Of a DNA stretch of 64,000 nt, positions 10,325 through 41,633 are shown in pieces (position 1 is the first letter of the stretch; each line of letters opens with the position of its first letter). The stretch is from the NCBI GenBank assembly GCA_017442855.1, contig JAFSPM010000009.1, positions 1 through 64,000 of the forward strand, given 5' to 3'. The translations under genes were made by a program, and so were the position numbers. The DNA is from Bacteroidaceae bacterium (GTDB lineage Bacteria > Bacteroidota > Bacteroidia > Bacteroidales > Bacteroidaceae). Below the pieces are notes generated by a model that saw only the letters and a program-made list of their open reading frames with translations, did not search any database and had not been told where the DNA came from.

Positions 10325-10374
10325 AAAAGCAGATTGCAAATCCGCATATTAACGGTTATATGCAATCTGCTTTT
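10325..10374. terminator. Bidirectional terminator-like hairpin
   Basis: AAAAGCAGATTGCA (10325-10338) pairs with TGCAATCTGCTTTT (10361-10374), a perfect 14-bp stem with A/T runs on both sides. It lies between the transporter gene and the 3' end of the copper ATPase gene. Confidence 0.7.
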
Positions 10375-10438
10375 TGTTAATAATCGAGAAGCCTTACTAA
10401 CTTGAAGGGTTTTTCAGTGCCCTCCATTTCTGCAGCCT

Positions 10439-12376
10439 TTATTTTTGTATCTTCAGGCGAAGGCTGTTAAGGACGACACTGACGCTTGAGAACGCCATAA
10501 GAGCACTGGCCAGCATCGGAGTGATTTGCCAGCTATAGCCGAAGAGGTAGGGGAGACCAGCAGCCAAAGGGATGCATACCAGGTTGTAGATGAAAGCCCA
10601 GAAAAGGTTCTGGTGAATCATGTTGACCGTGCGCTTGGATAGTTTGATTGCATCAGGAATTCTCCTGAGGTCATTGCCGATAAGCGTTACTTGCGCTACC
10701 TCCATTGCCACGTCGGTACCTTGTCCCATAGCGATGCTCACATCGGCAGCAGCCAAAGCTTGCGAGTCGTTAATACCATCACCCACCATAGCTACATGTT
10801 TGCCTTCGCCCTGTAATTTGCGTACTAAGTCCTCTTTATCTTGCGGCAACACTTTGCTTTGGTAGTGTGCAATACCCGCCTTCTCTGCCCAATAATGGGC
10901 AGCTTCTTCCTTGTCGCCACTCATCATGAACAGCTCTATACCGTGATGTTTTAATTGTTGAACTGCTTCAATGGCACTGTCCTTTAGCTTTTCACCATTA
11001 TAATTGATAGTTGATAGTTGATAATTGATAATTGGCTTCGCCCCATCTCCATTATCCATTATCAATTGTCCATTATCCATTACCAATTCCGTCAGGGTAC
11101 CTGTCTTGTCGAACACCATGGCATTGATGGCACAAAGACCCTCGAGGGCGGTGGCATCCTTGATGAGGATGTGTTGCTCAGCTGCCTTGCCAATGCCAAC
11201 CATCAGGGCGGTTGGAGTGGCTAAGCCCATGGCACAAGGACAAGCTATAACAAGCACTGACACAGCAGACAAGATGGCCTGTGGCAGTTTGTCCATGCCA
11301 CCCAATGCCAACCATAGAACGCAAGTGAGCAGGGCAATGGCCATCACTGTAGGTACAAAAATCAGGGCAATTTTGTCAACGGTGCGTTGTACGGGCGCTT
11401 TTGACCCTTGTGCCTGCTGTACCATTTTAATAATACCTGCCAGAACGGTGCTTTCACCCACTTGCTGGGCCTCAAACTGGAAGGTGCCCTGACGTACGAT
11501 GGTACCTGCCAGTACCTTATCACCTACTTGTTTCTCTACTGGTACTGCCTCACCGCTAATCATCGACTCATCAATATAGGTAGTGCCTTCGGTCACCACA
11601 CCATCCACTGGCACTTTCTCACCGGGGCGCACCTCTAAGACATCTTCAGGCTGTATGGTCGCCAATGGCACCTCGGAGAGCTCCCCCATTTGTAGCACTC
11701 TGGCTGTCTTAGGCTGTAATCCCATCAAGGCACGAATAGAGGAGGCCGTACCGTTCTTGGCACGTTCTTCCAGCAAGCGACCTGTTAGCACAAAAGTGAT
11801 GATCATGACGGATGCATCGTAATAGGTGTGCCAGTCCATGCCACGGCTACCCCAGAAGCTTTCACCCCAGAATGTGTTGAACACACTGAAGGTGAATGAA
11901 ACGGCAGTTGACAGTGCAACTAATGTATCCATATTGGCTGAACCATGCTGTAACTGTCGCCAGGCAATGCTATAGAATAGTCGTCCACAGTATATTAAAT
12001 TGATGATTGATATAATCATCATCAATATATTGTTTATCAGTGTATTGCCAAAACTAATATAATGCATAGAGATGGCCATACAAAGGATGGCTAATATCCA
12101 AGACACGATGACCCTTCTACGCAAGTTGAGGTAGCTTTGCCGCTCTATGGCCTCTAGGTCACGATCAGGTTCAGTCACCAGATCGTAGCCGATGCCTTGC
12201 AGTGCTTCCTTCATATTGTCAAGGCTCACCACCTCGGGGTTATAGTCCACCAAGGCTGTCCTGCTGGCCAACGACACGGCACAACTTTCTATGCCCTGCA
12301 ATCCGCTGAGTTTTCTCTCAACGTTTGCAGCGCATACTGCACACATCATTCCAACTATTGGTATAGTTTGTTTCAT
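10439..12376 (-). CDS. copA: Copper-type P1B ATPase lacking the nucleotide-binding domain
   Basis: The 645-residue protein starts with a heavy-metal domain (MCAVC at 11-15). It has the CPC ion site (379-381), the actuator motif SGEA, the phosphorylation motif DKTGTLT (423-429) and GDGIND (532-537). It is therefore a CopA/CopB-type exporter. The ~110-residue N-domain that normally lies between DKTGTLT and the second half of the P-domain is missing; only a ~31-residue low-complexity linker (430-460) remains. Family members are usually ~730-750 residues. Without the N-domain normal ATP binding is not expected, so the gene is either a decayed ATPase, a recombination product, or an assembly error. 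Next gene on the strand is the C_GCAxxG_C_C protein. Confidence 0.85.
   Translation of the reverse strand: MKQTIPIVGMMCAVCAANVERKLSGLQGIESCAVSLASRTALVDYNPEVVSLDNMKEALQGIGYDLVTEPDRDLEAIERQSYLNLRRRVIVSWILAILCMAISMHYISFGNTLINNILMMIISIINLIYCGRLFYSIAWRQLQHGSANMDTLVALSTAVSFTFSVFNTFWGESFWGSRGMDWHTYYDASVMIITFVLTGRLLEERAKNGTASSIRALMGLQPKTARVLQMGELSEVPLATIQPEDVLEVRPGEKVPVDGVVTEGTTYIDESMISGEAVPVEKQVGDKVLAGTIVRQGTFQFEAQQVGESTVLAGIIKMVQQAQGSKAPVQRTVDKIALIFVPTVMAIALLTCVLWLALGGMDKLPQAILSAVSVLVIACPCAMGLATPTALMVGIGKAAEQHILIKDATALEGLCAINAMVFDKTGTLTELVMDNGQLIMDNGDGAKPIINYQLSTINYNGEKLKDSAIEAVQQLKHHGIELFMMSGDKEEAAHYWAEKAGIAHYQSKVLPQDKEDLVRKLQGEGKHVAMVGDGINDSQALAAADVSIAMGQGTDVAMEVAQVTLIGNDLRRIPDAIKLSKRTVNMIHQNLFWAFIYNLVCIPLAAGLPYLFGYSWQITPMLASALMAFSSVSVVLNSLRLKIQK
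10997..11089. repeat. Intergenic-type repeat replacing the ATPase N-domain
   Basis: The stretch is made of TTGATAATTGATAATTG and CCATTATCCATTATCAATTG units. The same kind of sequence occurs between genes at 15143-15170, 21905-21940 and 21973-22024, where a GGCTTCGCCC motif is also shared. Here it is in frame within the copA reading frame and encodes MDNGQLIMDNGD and INYQLSTINYN on the minus strand. Confidence 0.8.
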
Positions 12377-33930: not shown

Positions 33931-33986
33931 ACGCGTCAGTTTGCTTAAAACAAAAAAGAGACTCATCTTACGATGAATCTCTCTTG

Positions 33987-34059
33987 AGCGGAAAACGAGA
34001 CTCGGACTCGCGACCCCAACCTTGGCAAGGTTGTGCTCTACCAACTGAGCTATTTCCGC
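33987..34059 (-). tRNA. tRNA-Gly (GCC), copy 1
   Basis: On the minus strand the acceptor stem GCGGAAA pairs with TTTCCGC, the anticodon loop reads TTGCCAA (GCC), the TTCGAG-like arm is GAGTCCGAGTC and the discriminator is T. The sequence appears identical to the copy at 34422-34494. A perfect 10-bp hairpin (CGCGAAATGC-TTT-GCATTTCGCG, 34057-34079) overlaps its 5' end. Confidence 0.95.
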
Positions 34060-34080
34060 GAAATGCTTTGCATTTCGCGA

Positions 34081-34151
34081 GATTGTTGGCTGCGCCTCAA
34101 CAAACTCAAATAAATTTGGTTTGTATTCGGCTTGCACAACAATTCCGCAAA
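34081..34151 (-). repeat. tRNA-flanking repeat, copy 1
   Basis: Shares AACTCAAATAAATTTGG, TTGCACAACAATTCCGCAAA and spacing with 34515-34587 (AGCTCAAGTAAACTTGG, TTGCACGACAATTCCGCAAA). Both copies lie on the 5' side of a tRNA-Gly(GCC) gene, after a small hairpin, suggesting that the tRNA-Gly unit was duplicated with its flank. Confidence 0.65.
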
Positions 34152-34183
34152 CCTCTTGCAAAGCAAGGCTTGCTACCTTTTTG

Positions 34184-34265
34184 TGCCCAAGAAAGGACTC
34201 GAACCTTCACGCCTCTCAGCACACGCACCTGAAACGTGCGCGTCTACCAATTCCGCCACTTGGGC
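34184..34265 (-). tRNA. tRNA-Leu (CAG)
   Basis: Acceptor GCCCAAG/CTTGGGC with discriminator A, D-arm GCGGAATTGGTAGACGC, anticodon stem CACGT/GCGTG with loop TTCAGGT (anticodon CAG), and a long variable arm as in all leucine tRNAs. Confidence 0.93.
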
Positions 34266-34301
34266 ATGGGATTATAGATAGCAAATATCTTTATGAACAG
34301 G

Positions 34302-34385
34302 TGAAGAGAAGGAGACTCGAACTCCCACGACACAATTGTCACTACCCCCTCAAAGTAGCGCGTCTACCAATTCCGCCACCTCTCC
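34302..34385 (-). tRNA. tRNA-Leu (GAG)
   Basis: Acceptor GGAGAGG with TCTCTTC and discriminator A (two G-U pairs), the same D-arm as the CAG tRNA, anticodon stem CTACT/GGTAG with loop TTGAGGG (anticodon GAG), long variable arm. Confidence 0.92.
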
Positions 34386-34421
34386 ATTTGTTAACATTAT
34401 CAATCAAAGATCTCTTGTTTG

Positions 34422-34494
34422 AGCGGAAAACGAGACTCGGACTCGCGACCCCAACCTTGGCAAGGTTGTGCTCTACCAACTGAGCTATTTCCGC
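34422..34494 (-). tRNA. tRNA-Gly (GCC), copy 2
   Basis: Same sequence as copy 1 at 33987-34059. A small hairpin CTTTTG-CCTTG-CAAAAG flanks it at 34495-34511. First tRNA of the minus-strand cluster. Confidence 0.95.
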
Positions 34495-38546: not shown

Positions 38547-39917
38547 TTATAGAATTTTTAGCTTTTCTTTCAATATGTCAATACCTGTCAGGGCTGTGGT
38601 CTTGATATGTTCAAAACCGTATATGTTCTCTGCCCAAAACTCACCAGGATCAATGATGTAGCAGGGTATCTTCCAAGGTATGTGTTCTATCAGACCTGCT
38701 GCAGGATAGACTTGAAGTGATGTGCCAATAACTACAAATATATCTGCATCCTTTACAATTCTTTCTGCTTGTTTCATATTGGGTACATTCTCACCAAAGA
38801 AAACGATAAACGGTCTCATCTGAGAGCCATCTGCCGCTTTTTCGCCTATTTGGATTGGCTCATCAAGAGGCTTTTCAACTATACAGTTGGAATCATTCGG
38901 ATTGTTAGACCCAGTGACTTTCGTTAATTCCCCACGCAAATGCAGAACATTGGTTGAGCCAGCACGTTCATGCAGATCATCCACGTTTTGGGTGATTATT
39001 GAGACAATATAGTCCTTTTCCAGTTCAGCAAGCACTTTGTGGGCATGGTTTGGCTCAACAGTCAACAAATTCTGTCTTCTGGCATTATAGAAGTCCAATA
39101 CTGCCGCTCGGTTTCGCCTATATCCCTGAATACTAGCCAAGTCTTGGGCATTGAAGTTCTGCCACATTCCATCCTTGTCGCGGAAAGTAGAGAGACCACT
39201 TTCCTTGCTGATGCCTGCTCCAGTTAATACAACTAAATGTTTCATACCTTCGTTCTTTTTATACCAAGTTGGTAAGAGATAATTGTTCTTTTTCTTCTCA
39301 AATCCAATAGTAGAATCCAAATCATGCCCTGGATATATTGTACAGTTGTTAGGCAACGTTGTTGTGATGTATTTCAGGCTGTTCATTAAGTCTTCTATCC
39401 ATCCAAACAACAAATCACTTCTTCCAATACTCTTTCGAAGCAATGTATCACCAGTAAACGCGATATGTTCTGCTTCACAATAGAATACAACACTACCAGG
39501 AGAATGTCCTGGAGTATGAAGAGTGATAAGATAGTGAGAACCAAATGTTATGACTTCATTATCTTGCAAATAATGTTCGGGTTTAACTATATCATATTCA
39601 AAGCCTCCTTCTCCAAAGACTTCTTCAATTTTCATTTCAATACGGCCCATCCATAACTGGTCCCTATGATGAACTTCTGGAAATAATCCAAATTCATCAC
39701 GAACTTGGTCACATGACAAAAGATGGTCATAATGCCCATGCGTTAAAAGACATCTTACAGGCTTTAATTGCTCGTCATGGATATATTGACGGAACAACTC
39801 CCTTTCATAGCTGTCTTGAGCACATGGGTCAATGATGACACATTCCTTTGTTTCATCACTTACTACATAGCAATTTGCTCGTGCAGTATTAAAACCGAAT
39901 CTTCTAACTGTTATCAT
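38547..39917 (-). CDS. MBL-fold hydrolase fused to a sirtuin (SIR2) deacylase
   Basis: Residues 1-~210 are an MBL-fold domain with THGHYDHLL, HTPGHSPGS, TGDTLL and YPGHD. Residues 225-456 are a complete CobB-like sirtuin with TGAGISKESGLSTFRD, TQNVDDLHERAGS, the catalytic HLRGEL and VIGTSLQVYPAAG. The zinc cysteines of many sirtuins are absent, as in Bacteroidetes CobB. The join lies at KKNEGMKHLVV, and a possible internal start (ATG at 39245 with GAAGG before it) could also yield free sirtuin. A combined deacylase/thioesterase role is inference. Confidence 0.85.
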   Translation of the reverse strand: MITVRRFGFNTARANCYVVSDETKECVIIDPCAQDSYERELFRQYIHDEQLKPVRCLLTHGHYDHLLSCDQVRDEFGLFPEVHHRDQLWMGRIEMKIEEVFGEGGFEYDIVKPEHYLQDNEVITFGSHYLITLHTPGHSPGSVVFYCEAEHIAFTGDTLLRKSIGRSDLLFGWIEDLMNSLKYITTTLPNNCTIYPGHDLDSTIGFEKKKNNYLLPTWYKKNEGMKHLVVLTGAGISKESGLSTFRDKDGMWQNFNAQDLASIQGYRRNRAAVLDFYNARRQNLLTVEPNHAHKVLAELEKDYIVSIITQNVDDLHERAGSTNVLHLRGELTKVTGSNNPNDSNCIVEKPLDEPIQIGEKAADGSQMRPFIVFFGENVPNMKQAERIVKDADIFVVIGTSLQVYPAAGLIEHIPWKIPCYIIDPGEFWAENIYGFEHIKTTALTGIDILKEKLKIL

Positions 39918-40110
39918 CGAGTTTCATTATATATTTTGGTGATTCACCATATTCATTCTTCTCTATATCAGAATCCTTGCAAAACCAAGTAAACACGAGG
40001 ATTCCGCCCCAAATTGGGAAAAACCACCACAGTGCCCCCCAGCCACTTATATCGATGTCATGAAGACGTCTTATAGTGACAGATAGTAATGGTATAATCG
40101 GGTAAACTGT
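39904..40110 (-). pseudogene. DUF805 membrane protein, C-terminal remnant
   Basis: The minus strand encodes VYPIIPLLSVTIRRLHDIDI, SGWGALWWFFPIWGG and CKDSDIEKNEYG, the end of a DUF805 protein. The first ~80 residues of a normal member are missing. It overlaps the cut-off 3' end of the peptidase T gene in another frame, so a deletion seems to have joined the two. It also overlaps the MBL-SIR2 start by 14 bp. Confidence 0.6.
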
Positions 40111-41203
40111 ATGCAATACTTTCATATTGCATTTTATCATCAGTTTTCTTGGCCTCTACAAAAGGAAATGCCGCTTGCACCTTTTTGAGGTTTTCTTCCA
40201 TCAATTGCTTTTGATACGCGCCTTCTTCCTTATCGAAGTAACGCAATCGAACTTTTACATCAAAGTCCGTTTTAATTGTGTCACCTTTTGGAGTAACATG
40301 TTTGGCCAAAGAATAACAATGTATATATCCGTCTTTTCCGTCTCTCGCACTGGGATGCATCTCTGGTGGTACTAAACCCATGAAATAAGTAGCAGCCGCC
40401 AAAGCGTCAGCATATCTTTCAGCAGGATGAATATCATTCCCCTTGAAGTAATAAGTTTGACCTATGGCGGTAAAGTTAGCTATAGACATTTTGCCATAAT
40501 CCCCACCATCTATATCAACAACCACATCTGGTTTGTCAACAAACGCTTTAGGGTCATACCTATCAGCAGCCCTTCCAATATCCTCATTTTGACTAAGGCA
40601 GACCATGACACGACCATGCTTAAACTTAGGATTCTTTATAAGTTCTTCCACCATCGTAACTAAAATGGCACATCCAGTCTTATCATCTGCTCCGAGTAAT
40701 GTTGTGCCGTCACTCGTTACGATAGTCTTTCCTGTCAAATCCTTCAAATGAGCACATTGTGGATTGTTTGGACTTATCGTAATACCACCAGGGAGACAAA
40801 TATCTCCACCGTCATAATTTCTGTGAACTATTGGCTTAATGCCTTTTCCCGGTACCTCTGGAGTAACATCCATATGAGCCATAAACAGTACTGAAGGAAC
40901 ATTCTTCTTGATGTTCGATGGAATGTCGATATATACGTAGTAATCATCAGAAAGAGTGACTTTCACATCTTTTCCACCAAAGCCTTTCACCTCATTATAT
41001 ATGAACTTAGCTATTTCCCTTTGTCCTTCGGTCATTGGGAATGATGTCATACTTGATTCATCAATCGATTGGCTCTCAATCTTTACATAGGATAGGAAGC
41101 GCTCAAGCATTTTCTCTTGAGACACTTTTCCTGAGACAGGAATTTGGGCATTGCATGCAAAAATGCAGAAATAACACAATAGGGATATGACAGTTCTTTT
41201 CAT
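40058..41203 (-). pseudogene. pepT: Peptidase T-like M20 peptidase, C-terminally truncated
   Basis: The 381-residue frame starts with a signal/lipobox-like segment (CIFACNAQ). It contains M20 motifs: AHMDVTPEV, GADDKTG, NEDIGRAADRYD and DIDGGDYG near residues 230-240. It matches PepT (E. coli 408 residues) except that the last ~70 residues, holding the GGTDG segment and the last metal-binding histidine, are gone, and the frame ends in an unrelated LPDYTITICHYKTSS tail in DUF805 DNA. Activity is unlikely. The 5' side has a long structured leader. Confidence 0.7.
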
Positions 41204-41275
41204 GGCTTAGCACTATTGTTATGCCTCCAAACTCCCCAAATTGGCGGTTAATATTTGACTTTACTGAATGGCAAT

Positions 41276-41597
41276 AAAAAAAGGCATGGGAGTTTCTACA
41301 TCTGCCCATCCCTGATCTCAGGCCTTCGCATTGCCCCCATACAAGGATTAGCAACGCAGTCAGCCCACGCCAAGCGATTATATATACAACTATTTGCTAT
41401 ACATTTATATATAGCTATAGCTGGGATATAATCTCCCTACGCAGACGCTTATCGTTGCATTATCTCTGTGTATGGTTTCTAAGTTGCGAAGTTAGAGATC
41501 ACAGAATGATAACGTCCGTAAACGCCTTTTCGAGACTTGCCCTACAAACGGCATACTGGTCTCATTCCATCAATGTCTTGAAGGATATGCACCCTTC
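41276..41597 (-). ncRNA. Structured leader or free-standing ncRNA upstream of pepT
   Basis: On the minus strand a promoter (41603-41633) precedes ~320 nt of foldable sequence. Hairpin 1 is GAGAC...TGCC-loop-GGCA...GTCTC. A long stem follows: CGTTTA/TAAGCG, CGTTATC/GATAATG, TCTGTG/CACAGA, TCTAA/TTAGA. Next is GATTATAT/ATATAATC (41426-41433 with 41376-41383). The final domain is GGCGTGGG/CCCATGCC with inner GCGTTGC/GCAATGC and CCTGA-GA-TCAGG, ending in T7 (41276-41282). Downstream GGGGAGTTT (41229-41237) could pair with AAACTCCC of the terminator arm. No known RNase P, tmRNA or SRP core motif was seen. Confidence 0.55.
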
Positions 41598-41602
41598 ATC
41601 CG

Positions 41603-41633
41603 CAAAGATAGTGCAAGATGAAGACAAAAGCAA
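41603..41633 (-). promoter_or_regulatory. Promoter of the pepT leader / ncRNA
   Basis: On the minus strand TTG (41633-41631), 20-bp spacer, TATCTTTG (41610-41603), a full match to the Bacteroidetes consensus. Confidence 0.72.

Follow-up and report, generated by a model that had tools for sequence, protein, structure and literature searches.

A candidate switch-like leader RNA upstream of a pepT-like gene belongs to a multi-copy family of the Bacteroidales

Introduction

Members of the Bacteroidales are major constituents of the human gut flora, and these bacteria do not rely on Shine-Dalgarno sites. To our knowledge, few of their regulatory RNAs are understood. For most riboswitches, the target genes share a pathway.

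Among the described systems closest to the RNA reported here, the FopS and GibS sRNAs constitute a multi-copy Bacteroidaceae RNA family behind canonical promoters, and FopS reportedly consists of a single-stranded 5' stretch and a terminator hairpin, acts in trans and has been deposited in Rfam (PMC11697453). Leader-dependent control of a Bacteroides gene is represented by the roc mRNA of B. thetaiotaomicron, whose leader measures 54 nt (PMC10294740). A third study describes HMP2_1881, a 108 bp Bacteroidetes candidate near radical SAM domains that is expressed in 13/13 places, among main candidates of 27-219 bp (PMC8040213).

Here we analyze a window, i.e., the whole 64,000-nt stretch of DNA under study, in which an RNA of approximately 300 nt precedes a pepT-like gene. 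The RNA is one copy of a family (class I) that has a sister, class II. It resembles large riboswitches and attenuators such as the cobalamin and T-box RNAs, as we know them, in its long structured 5' leader, its long-range contacts, its rival pairings and the terminator-like end of class I, but differs from them in having no Rfam match, in a loop strand (C') that appears anchored to the start codon beyond the terminator, and in functionally unrelated targets. Multiple copies behind promoters are shared with FopS and GibS; in contrast to FopS, the new RNA is about 300 nt long, folded over long distances and tied to its own locus, and this architecture does not fit such short seed-plus-terminator sRNAs (PMC11697453). 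The roc leader, which is similar in controlling a gene through its leader, was set aside because its description, as far as covered here, gives 54 nt and no such fold (PMC10294740). HMP2_1881, compared by description only, shares with the RNA its origin in Bacteroidetes, a size near that of our 3' domain and a radical SAM neighborhood (TIGR04117 follows 9/102 class I copies), and judged by that partial description alone it might be a fragment of the new RNA; given their size range, the main candidates do not include the full RNA as one unit (PMC8040213).

Results

The element occupies approximately 41600-41205 on the minus strand of the window, between a recR-like gene (42804-42187, assigned by eye) and the pepT-like gene (41203-40058). 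Its features, all on the minus strand and each with its basis, are as follows.

41603-41633, minus strand: Bacteroidota-type promoter TTG-N20-TATCTTTG, read from the sequence
41580-41600, minus strand: 5' hairpin GATGAAGGGTGCATATCCTTC, which follows the class II type in this copy; sequence similarity to class II copies L002, L004 and L005
41550-41559, minus strand: strand A CCAGTATGCC, weak in this copy, with the A' extension GGGCTGACTG (41366-41357) as partner; family-wide cis test
41522-41530, minus strand: strand B AAAAGGCGT, pairing with ATGCCTTTT of the 3' arm; covariation
41469-41501, minus strand: strands a TGATCTC (41501-41495), b CTTCGCA (41491-41485) and c CCATACA (41475-41469); covariation
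41453-41458, minus strand: strand D GCAACG, able to pair with CGTTGC (41356-41351); covariation
41374-41433, minus strand: variable hairpin, limits approximate; length and sequence vary among copies
41278-41371, minus strand: conserved 3' domain (model R1) with A' GGCGTGGG, P2, a GGC hairpin with b', c' and a', then C (AAACTCCC) and B' (ATGCC and the following T); covariance model
41371-41364 and 41290-41283, minus strand: GC stem GGCGTGGG/CCCATGCC, read from the sequence
41276-41282, minus strand: T7 tract after the stem, read from the sequence
41223-41245, minus strand: downstream hairpin GCC..GGGGAGTTT..GGC, whose loop strand C' (41237-41229) pairs with C (41295-41288); cis-versus-swapped test and spacing
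40058-41203, minus strand: PepT-like peptidase gene with an N-terminal signal-like stretch, C-terminally shortened; NCBIfam

The original prediction of a large structured leader was borne out by folding, as the window RNA reached a minimum free energy of -113.1 kcal/mol compared to -88.2 ± 5.25 kcal/mol in 100 dinucleotide shuffles (z = -4.74), with 0/100 shuffles as low. The GC stem with a T7 tract, placed about 70 nt before the pepT start, is likewise present, 72 nt separating T7 from the ATG at 41203, and the promoter proposed to read into the leader (41633-41603) fits TTG-N20-TATCTTTG, which we take to be the consensus Bacteroidota form. Downstream of the stem, GGGGAGTTT (41237-41229) is complementary to AAACTCCC (41295-41288), and C' starts 34 nt upstream of the ATG. 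A generic scan for sigma-70 promoters and terminators lists neither the promoter nor the terminator of the window RNA, since the former does not belong to the type scanned for and the latter has a stem that closes on a large loop. Approximately 30 nt around the promoter recur with 88-91% identity at other sites of the own genome (G000; C47:7473, C31:48774, C20:49241, C15:94889, and C15:47026); the C47 site, the one inspected, stands before unrelated sequence, and the recurring region is probably a common strong promoter form.

At the 5' hairpin, 44-61 nt are 85-87% identical to the class II copies L002, L004, and L005. The 5' end of this class I copy (41566-41610, minus strand) is thus of the class II type, which suggests an exchange of 5' modules between the two classes, and because of this 5' end the A-A' pairing is weak in the window copy (just -11.1 kcal/mol). 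The best NCBIfam PepT match to the downstream ORF covers profile positions 2-324 of 409 and stays below the cut-off, and the gene looks truncated or fused; past the stop codon, a hydrophobic tail that by eye looks DUF805-like is encoded in a different frame (window 39900-41203, minus strand). Elsewhere in the window, the minus strand carries a tRNA cluster at 33986-34494, made up of two genes for Gly (gcc) and two for Leu (cag, gag).

Rfam 15 at the gathering threshold, a check that had been proposed with the prediction, identified no family on the window RNA, returning only four tRNAs elsewhere in the window, and on 20 homologous loci it returned one tRNA and nothing else. T-box, group I and II introns, 6S, RNase P, tmRNA, and SRP gave no match by Rfam or ARAGORN, in agreement with the original prediction, in which the RNA was not recognized as RNase P RNA, tmRNA, SRP RNA or a T-box. 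At a low threshold (E up to 10), Rfam gave three weak and implausible matches on the window RNA; low-threshold candidates rejected as implausible or off-target were a microRNA, a snoRNA, PreQ1 (on the other strand), and RAGATH-7 (outside the RNA). Bacteroides-1 and Bacteroidales-1 (Weinberg 2010) gave no Rfam match, and Bacteroides-2, which has no Rfam number there, falls outside this comparison. No description of the RNA was found in the open PMC literature (supplements and preprints being beyond its scope), including the available parts of PMC7366714, PMC2864571, PMC11109978, and PMC7160235, and four sequence fragments of the RNA did not occur in the texts of the open PMC papers searched. 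Within the known kind of structured cis-regulatory leaders, the RNA apparently forms an undescribed class of unusual design.

A nucleotide search revealed further partial copies in the same genome, 68-74% alike where BLAST aligned them, and matches in 15 of 60 relatives. From 26 copies we built a covariance model (R1) that spans the 3' domain of 94 nt, and the 3' domain of the window, itself one of these seeds, scored 93.5 bits (E = 2.9e-22). R1 matched 108/149 genus genomes, where a single genome had as many as 12 matches and the own genome had 7, and 48/247 genomes of the order, spread over 37/173 genera. In a phylum-wide sample, 2/296 genomes were matched, the own genome and a weak one (E = 5e-4); searches over more than 40 genomes used stricter filters that lose weak matches. 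On the reverse strand, R1 matches were weak (8 matches of 22.5-28.8 bits vs. mostly 60-106 bits forward). By a pattern scan, at least 116 stretches were found among the matches listed, where the carriers include metagenome-assembled genomes (MAGs) labeled Bacteroides, Parabacteroides, Prevotella, Alloprevotella, Paraprevotella, Muribaculaceae, and others, as well as the isolates Bacteroides bouchesdurhonensis, Xylanibacter rarus, and Prevotellamassilia timonensis. R1 confirmed 79/80 of the pattern loci scored, L132 giving no match; L125 (cut off) was left out and 36 loci (L160-L195) lay outside the scoring. Three records labeled Clostridia or Lachnospiraceae are MAGs that may be misbinned. Class I gave no match in plasmids or phages and no exact pattern in viral contigs. 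The view of the RNA as a leader of pepT holds in that a structured leader lies upstream of this gene, but not in that it is a single one, as it is one copy of a multi-copy family standing before many different genes. Matches in G541 (C13, C15), G519 (C24, C36), and G660 (C25) begin 14-338 nt from contig starts and may represent near-identical recent copies that break assemblies. After removal of 3 duplicates, 124 distinct class I copies were available, which are top-scoring or exact-pattern matches and not a random sample.

Three loci of the own genome share just 44-61 nt with the window RNA at the 5' end and carry the second RNA, class II, in which the elements follow the same order as in class I with different sequences. 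R1 barely detects it (L004 at 23.5 bits), and a DNA similarity search found it in 37/80 genus genomes. Class II also matched 7 plasmid-collection records from Bacteroides, Phocaeicola, Parabacteroides, and Prevotella (one a 1.77-Mb replicon), 10 viral-collection contigs and 2 phage records, of which one reached 83.3% across 70% of the query, the other being weak. Plasmid-borne copies are L237 and L241 (Parabacteroides distasonis plasmids) and L238 (B. uniformis pBUN1). On plasmids, class II directly precedes a DUF4433 gene in one case and a beta-lactamase gene in another, both times following backbone genes (toprim and mobV, or hypothetical), and a further copy lies approximately 380 nt before a DUF6088/AbiEii pair. 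At G103:C96, a class I copy (10369-10462, plus strand) and a class II copy (10630-10801, minus strand) stand within approximately 170 nt of each other on opposite strands. The class II alignment (A2) comprised 29 sequences, L002 and L225 being left out and L218 lying outside it; L218, L231, and L241 were not recognized in one class II scan.

Covariation in class I was assessed on 112 of the 124 sequences (12 left out). Helix b was paired in 99.6% of cells with 100 double-changed cells vs. 40 ± 11 in shuffled alignments, P2 in 99.4% (103 vs. 30), and the 3' domain alone in 99.5% (24 vs. 8.0). For helices a and c, pairing reached 69.3% (184 vs. 66) and 61.8% (213 vs. 113), respectively; among slid controls, c shifted by -1 paired 65% (190 double-changed cells), a by +1 64% and B by +2 80%, and the high values for a and c indicate that both are loosely aligned. 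D was 95.1% paired (10 vs. 2), yet 91% when slid by -3. Loop sequences are strongly conserved. The class II rod B-a-b-c-A/A'-c'-b'-a'-B' was paired in 87.3% of cells with 115 double-changed cells vs. 47.3 shuffled (29 sequences), compared to 38.9-44.0% pairing for slid rods; its helix b occurs in the variants CGUAGGAAA/UUUCCUACG, CCUAGGA/UCCUAGG, and CCUGAGA/UCUCAGG, its weakest helix is c (65.1% paired), and local alternative pairings, which may also form, gave 20 double-changed cells vs. 10 shuffled. The comparison of homologues that had been recommended thus shows pairings kept through compensatory change, e.g., in helix b, as expected of a structured RNA family.

The 3' strand of the terminator stem is C-B'. 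In class I, B' has one partner close to the 5' end, B (AAAAGGCGU; paired in 91.9% of cells, 53 double-changed vs. 29 ± 4 shuffled), and another in A' (GGCGUGGG) of the terminator stem (97.8%; 30 vs. 9). Since B and A' both covary with B', they compete for it as in a two-state RNA. The C-C' pairing was tested by partner swapping because MAFFT misaligns the C' region. In class I the energy was -10.39 kcal/mol in cis and -9.00 kcal/mol when swapped (0/5000 permutations; 116 of 124 copies, 8 left out with an unrecognized arm), and per copy cis surpassed the median swap in 81/116 and fell in the best tenth in 28/116. Class II gave -10.88 vs. -7.91 kcal/mol (0/5000; 27 of 29 copies, 2 left out). Likewise, A-A' reached -15.63 kcal/mol in cis and -13.22 kcal/mol swapped (0/5000; 103 of 124 copies, 21 left out), and a control stretch further upstream had a slight cis excess (144/5000). 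Two copies before HTH genes (L032 and L034) have no C', their ATG lying 18-21 nt past the model end. The original prediction had noted that the pairing of AAACTCCC with GGGGAGTTT excludes the terminator arm; given the rival pairings and the better fit in cis in both classes, this mutual exclusion holds and is a property of the family. When states were forced, B-B' surpassed the terminator in 106/112 class I copies (mean -9.9 kcal/mol); a gap of just 1.4 kcal/mol separates the two states in the window copy. Of the 112 unforced class I minima, computed by a program without pseudoknots, 32 contained B-B' and 1 contained the terminator stem, while 79 had neither of them.

A TAnnTTTG box precedes the RNA in 73/101 class I copies (23 of 124 left out), where 3.5 are expected from shuffles, and in 27/29 class II copies. 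Downstream, 75/104 class I copies (20 of 124 left out) are followed within 130 nt by the start of a sense ORF of 100 aa or more, compared to 655/2080 random points and 10/104 on the other side. From C' to the ATG, the class I median is 34 nt with quartiles of 31-37 and a MAD of 3.0, compared to a permuted mean of 12.7 (minimum 8.0 in 5000); this count covers 67 of 124 copies, the other 57 having a weak C' or a distant or no ORF. The quartiles of the stem-to-C' distance are 23.5-40.5. The standard deviations of the two distances are nearly equal (9.9 and 10.9, respectively) because of outliers, and the tightness is visible in the quartiles. Among class II copies, 36/45 (33/42 with distinct proteins) have 44-60 nt between B' and the ATG. 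The start codon thus looks like the anchor. The own promoter form, the sense orientation and the near-fixed position before genes are marks that point to a cis-regulatory leader.

The anatomy of an attenuator, i.e., GC stem, U-tract and rival antiterminator, is present in class I, while the tail of class II is mostly weak. The first 8 nt past the stem held at least 5 T in 107/116 class I and 18/29 class II copies, and the first 10 nt held an unbroken run of 5 or more T in 95/116 and 7/29, respectively (8 of 124 class I copies left out with an unrecognized arm).

The 148 downstream proteins fell into 91 clusters, of which 75 were singletons. The largest groups are repeat-rich surface proteins (15, a loose cluster), small HTH regulators (12), peptides with a Cxxx radical-SAM-target signature (9), and lipoproteins (8). 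N-termini of proteins of at least 100 aa were exported-like in 59/83 cases for class I (p = 5e-7) and 28/35 for class II (p = 1e-5) vs. 243/583 in the background, which consists of other ORFs of class I loci; a home-made heuristic made all of these calls. Class II stands before an EcoRI-type methylase gene in the own genome, before an annotated DUF4433 gene, and before a beta-lactamase gene on a B. uniformis plasmid; Pfam DarT was found in one protein of the target set. The protein set used (A3) leaves out 6 of the 148 targets, and two A4 candidates, including the beta-lactamase, are also outside it. Pfam and NCBIfam revealed no common pathway among the targets in the first 25 families listed. 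A shared target pathway, which is usual for riboswitches though not strictly defining, was therefore not found, and the downstream genes lend no support to the peptide, amino-acid or metal ligands suggested earlier for probing. For one lipoprotein gene, the RNA stands at the same place in 5/6 orthologues (at least 65% identity, query genome included) and is absent from one, and a seventh, remote match (28%) has no RNA, suggesting that the module can be gained or lost.

Discussion

On balance we lean towards the RNA being a cis-acting switch leader of a new multi-copy Bacteroidales family with two or more sister classes, which would act mainly at translation start with a terminator exit chiefly in class I. 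Comparison of the copies shows the helices, the competing pairings, the promoter box and the anchoring to the start codon, and the leaders probably control the genes downstream of them. We infer two states with different expression, an action mainly at translation start, and a common cue that shifts the RNA between the states. The promoter box lies just before the 5' hairpin, and the RNA forms the long-range helices a, b, and c and the closing helix B-B'. The 3' strand C-B' has rival partners, either A' upstream or B upstream together with the loop C' downstream. In one state, B would take B' and the rod, through its C strand, would dock with the C' hairpin immediately upstream of the ribosome landing zone. 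In the other, A' would take the 3' strand, which gives class I its terminator-like stem and U-tract, and the C' hairpin would be freed. A small molecule, a protein or a physiological cue would shift this balance and thereby set the expression of the downstream gene, mainly at translation start, a stop of transcription being an extra exit chiefly in class I.

Alternatively, termination alone could account for the design, as in a classical metabolite riboswitch or attenuator in which a ligand bound to the rod stabilizes B-B' and so blocks the A'-B' terminator. The T-rich tails (5 or more T among the first 8 nt past the stem in 107/116 class I and 18/29 class II copies), the advantage of forced B-B' over the forced terminator in 106/112 class I copies and the strongly conserved loops are consistent with such a device. 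However, C' lies downstream of the U-tract, too late to decide termination, and it nevertheless covaries and stays at a steady distance from the AUG; being beyond the U-tract, it can matter in read-through messages only, and the best-conserved spacing, that to the start codon, points to control at or near translation start. Moreover, an uninterrupted run of 5 T occurs in only 7/29 class II copies and the targets have no common pathway, and we consider control by termination alone unlikely. Termination may instead be one exit, clearest in class I, the shared design acting on the read-through message near the start codon. Of the riboswitch or attenuator and the free ncRNA envisaged originally, the large leader, its exclusive pairings and the lack of a known family thus stand, whereas the terminator holds in part only (class II run of 5 in 7/29), and a free ncRNA with a decaying gene is not favored as a rule of the family, though the pepT-like gene looks truncated.

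A free RNA would also result if the promoter and the terminator-like end of class I delimited a stand-alone sRNA of approximately 325 nt that acts in trans on mRNAs with GGGGAG hairpins, and multi-copy sRNA families such as FopS are known in Bacteroides (PMC11697453). C and C' fit better within a locus than between loci, the position before a sense gene is steady and class II mostly lacks a clean terminator tail, all of which makes a trans-acting sRNA improbable. The many copies per genome, their location before accessory and plasmid-borne genes and the occurrence of class II in 10 viral-collection contigs, 7 plasmid-collection records and 2 phage records could rather recall a mobile or recombination DNA element, an imperfect palindrome like attC, REP or a MITE, that spreads with accessory genes and folds only secondarily. 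Against this, the orientation, the promoter box at one end and the distance to the start codon are all kept, so that insertion regardless of gene orientation was not observed; reverse-strand matches are weak (22.5-28.8 bits vs. mostly 60-106), the pairings cross, and copies within a genome are only 68-74% alike where BLAST aligned them. We regard a mobile element as very improbable, and we attach still less weight to a self-cleaving ribozyme that would process the message near the C-C' junction, which could draw on the nested and crossing helices known from compact ribozymes by analogy but matched no Rfam ribozyme or intron family at gathering score.

Beyond the preferred reading of a cis-acting switch leader, we tentatively put forward, as a possibility in which we have distinctly less confidence, a superfamily of approximately 300-nt switch RNAs across the Bacteroidales in which the RNAs, numerous in each genome, would make a kissing contact with the C' hairpin, some 34 nt before the AUG, and thereby gate the translation of dozens of unrelated, often exported accessory proteins on one global cue, as a general-purpose gate and not a pathway riboswitch. 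An RNA family that matches in 108/149 genus genomes and lies upstream of plasmid cargo and of genes for small regulators, surface proteins, modification enzymes and radical-SAM peptide targets would constitute control on the scale of a regulon that annotation has missed. If true, docking at a place set by the start codon would couple the fold of a leader to translation in a manner that is new, without reliance on Shine-Dalgarno sites.
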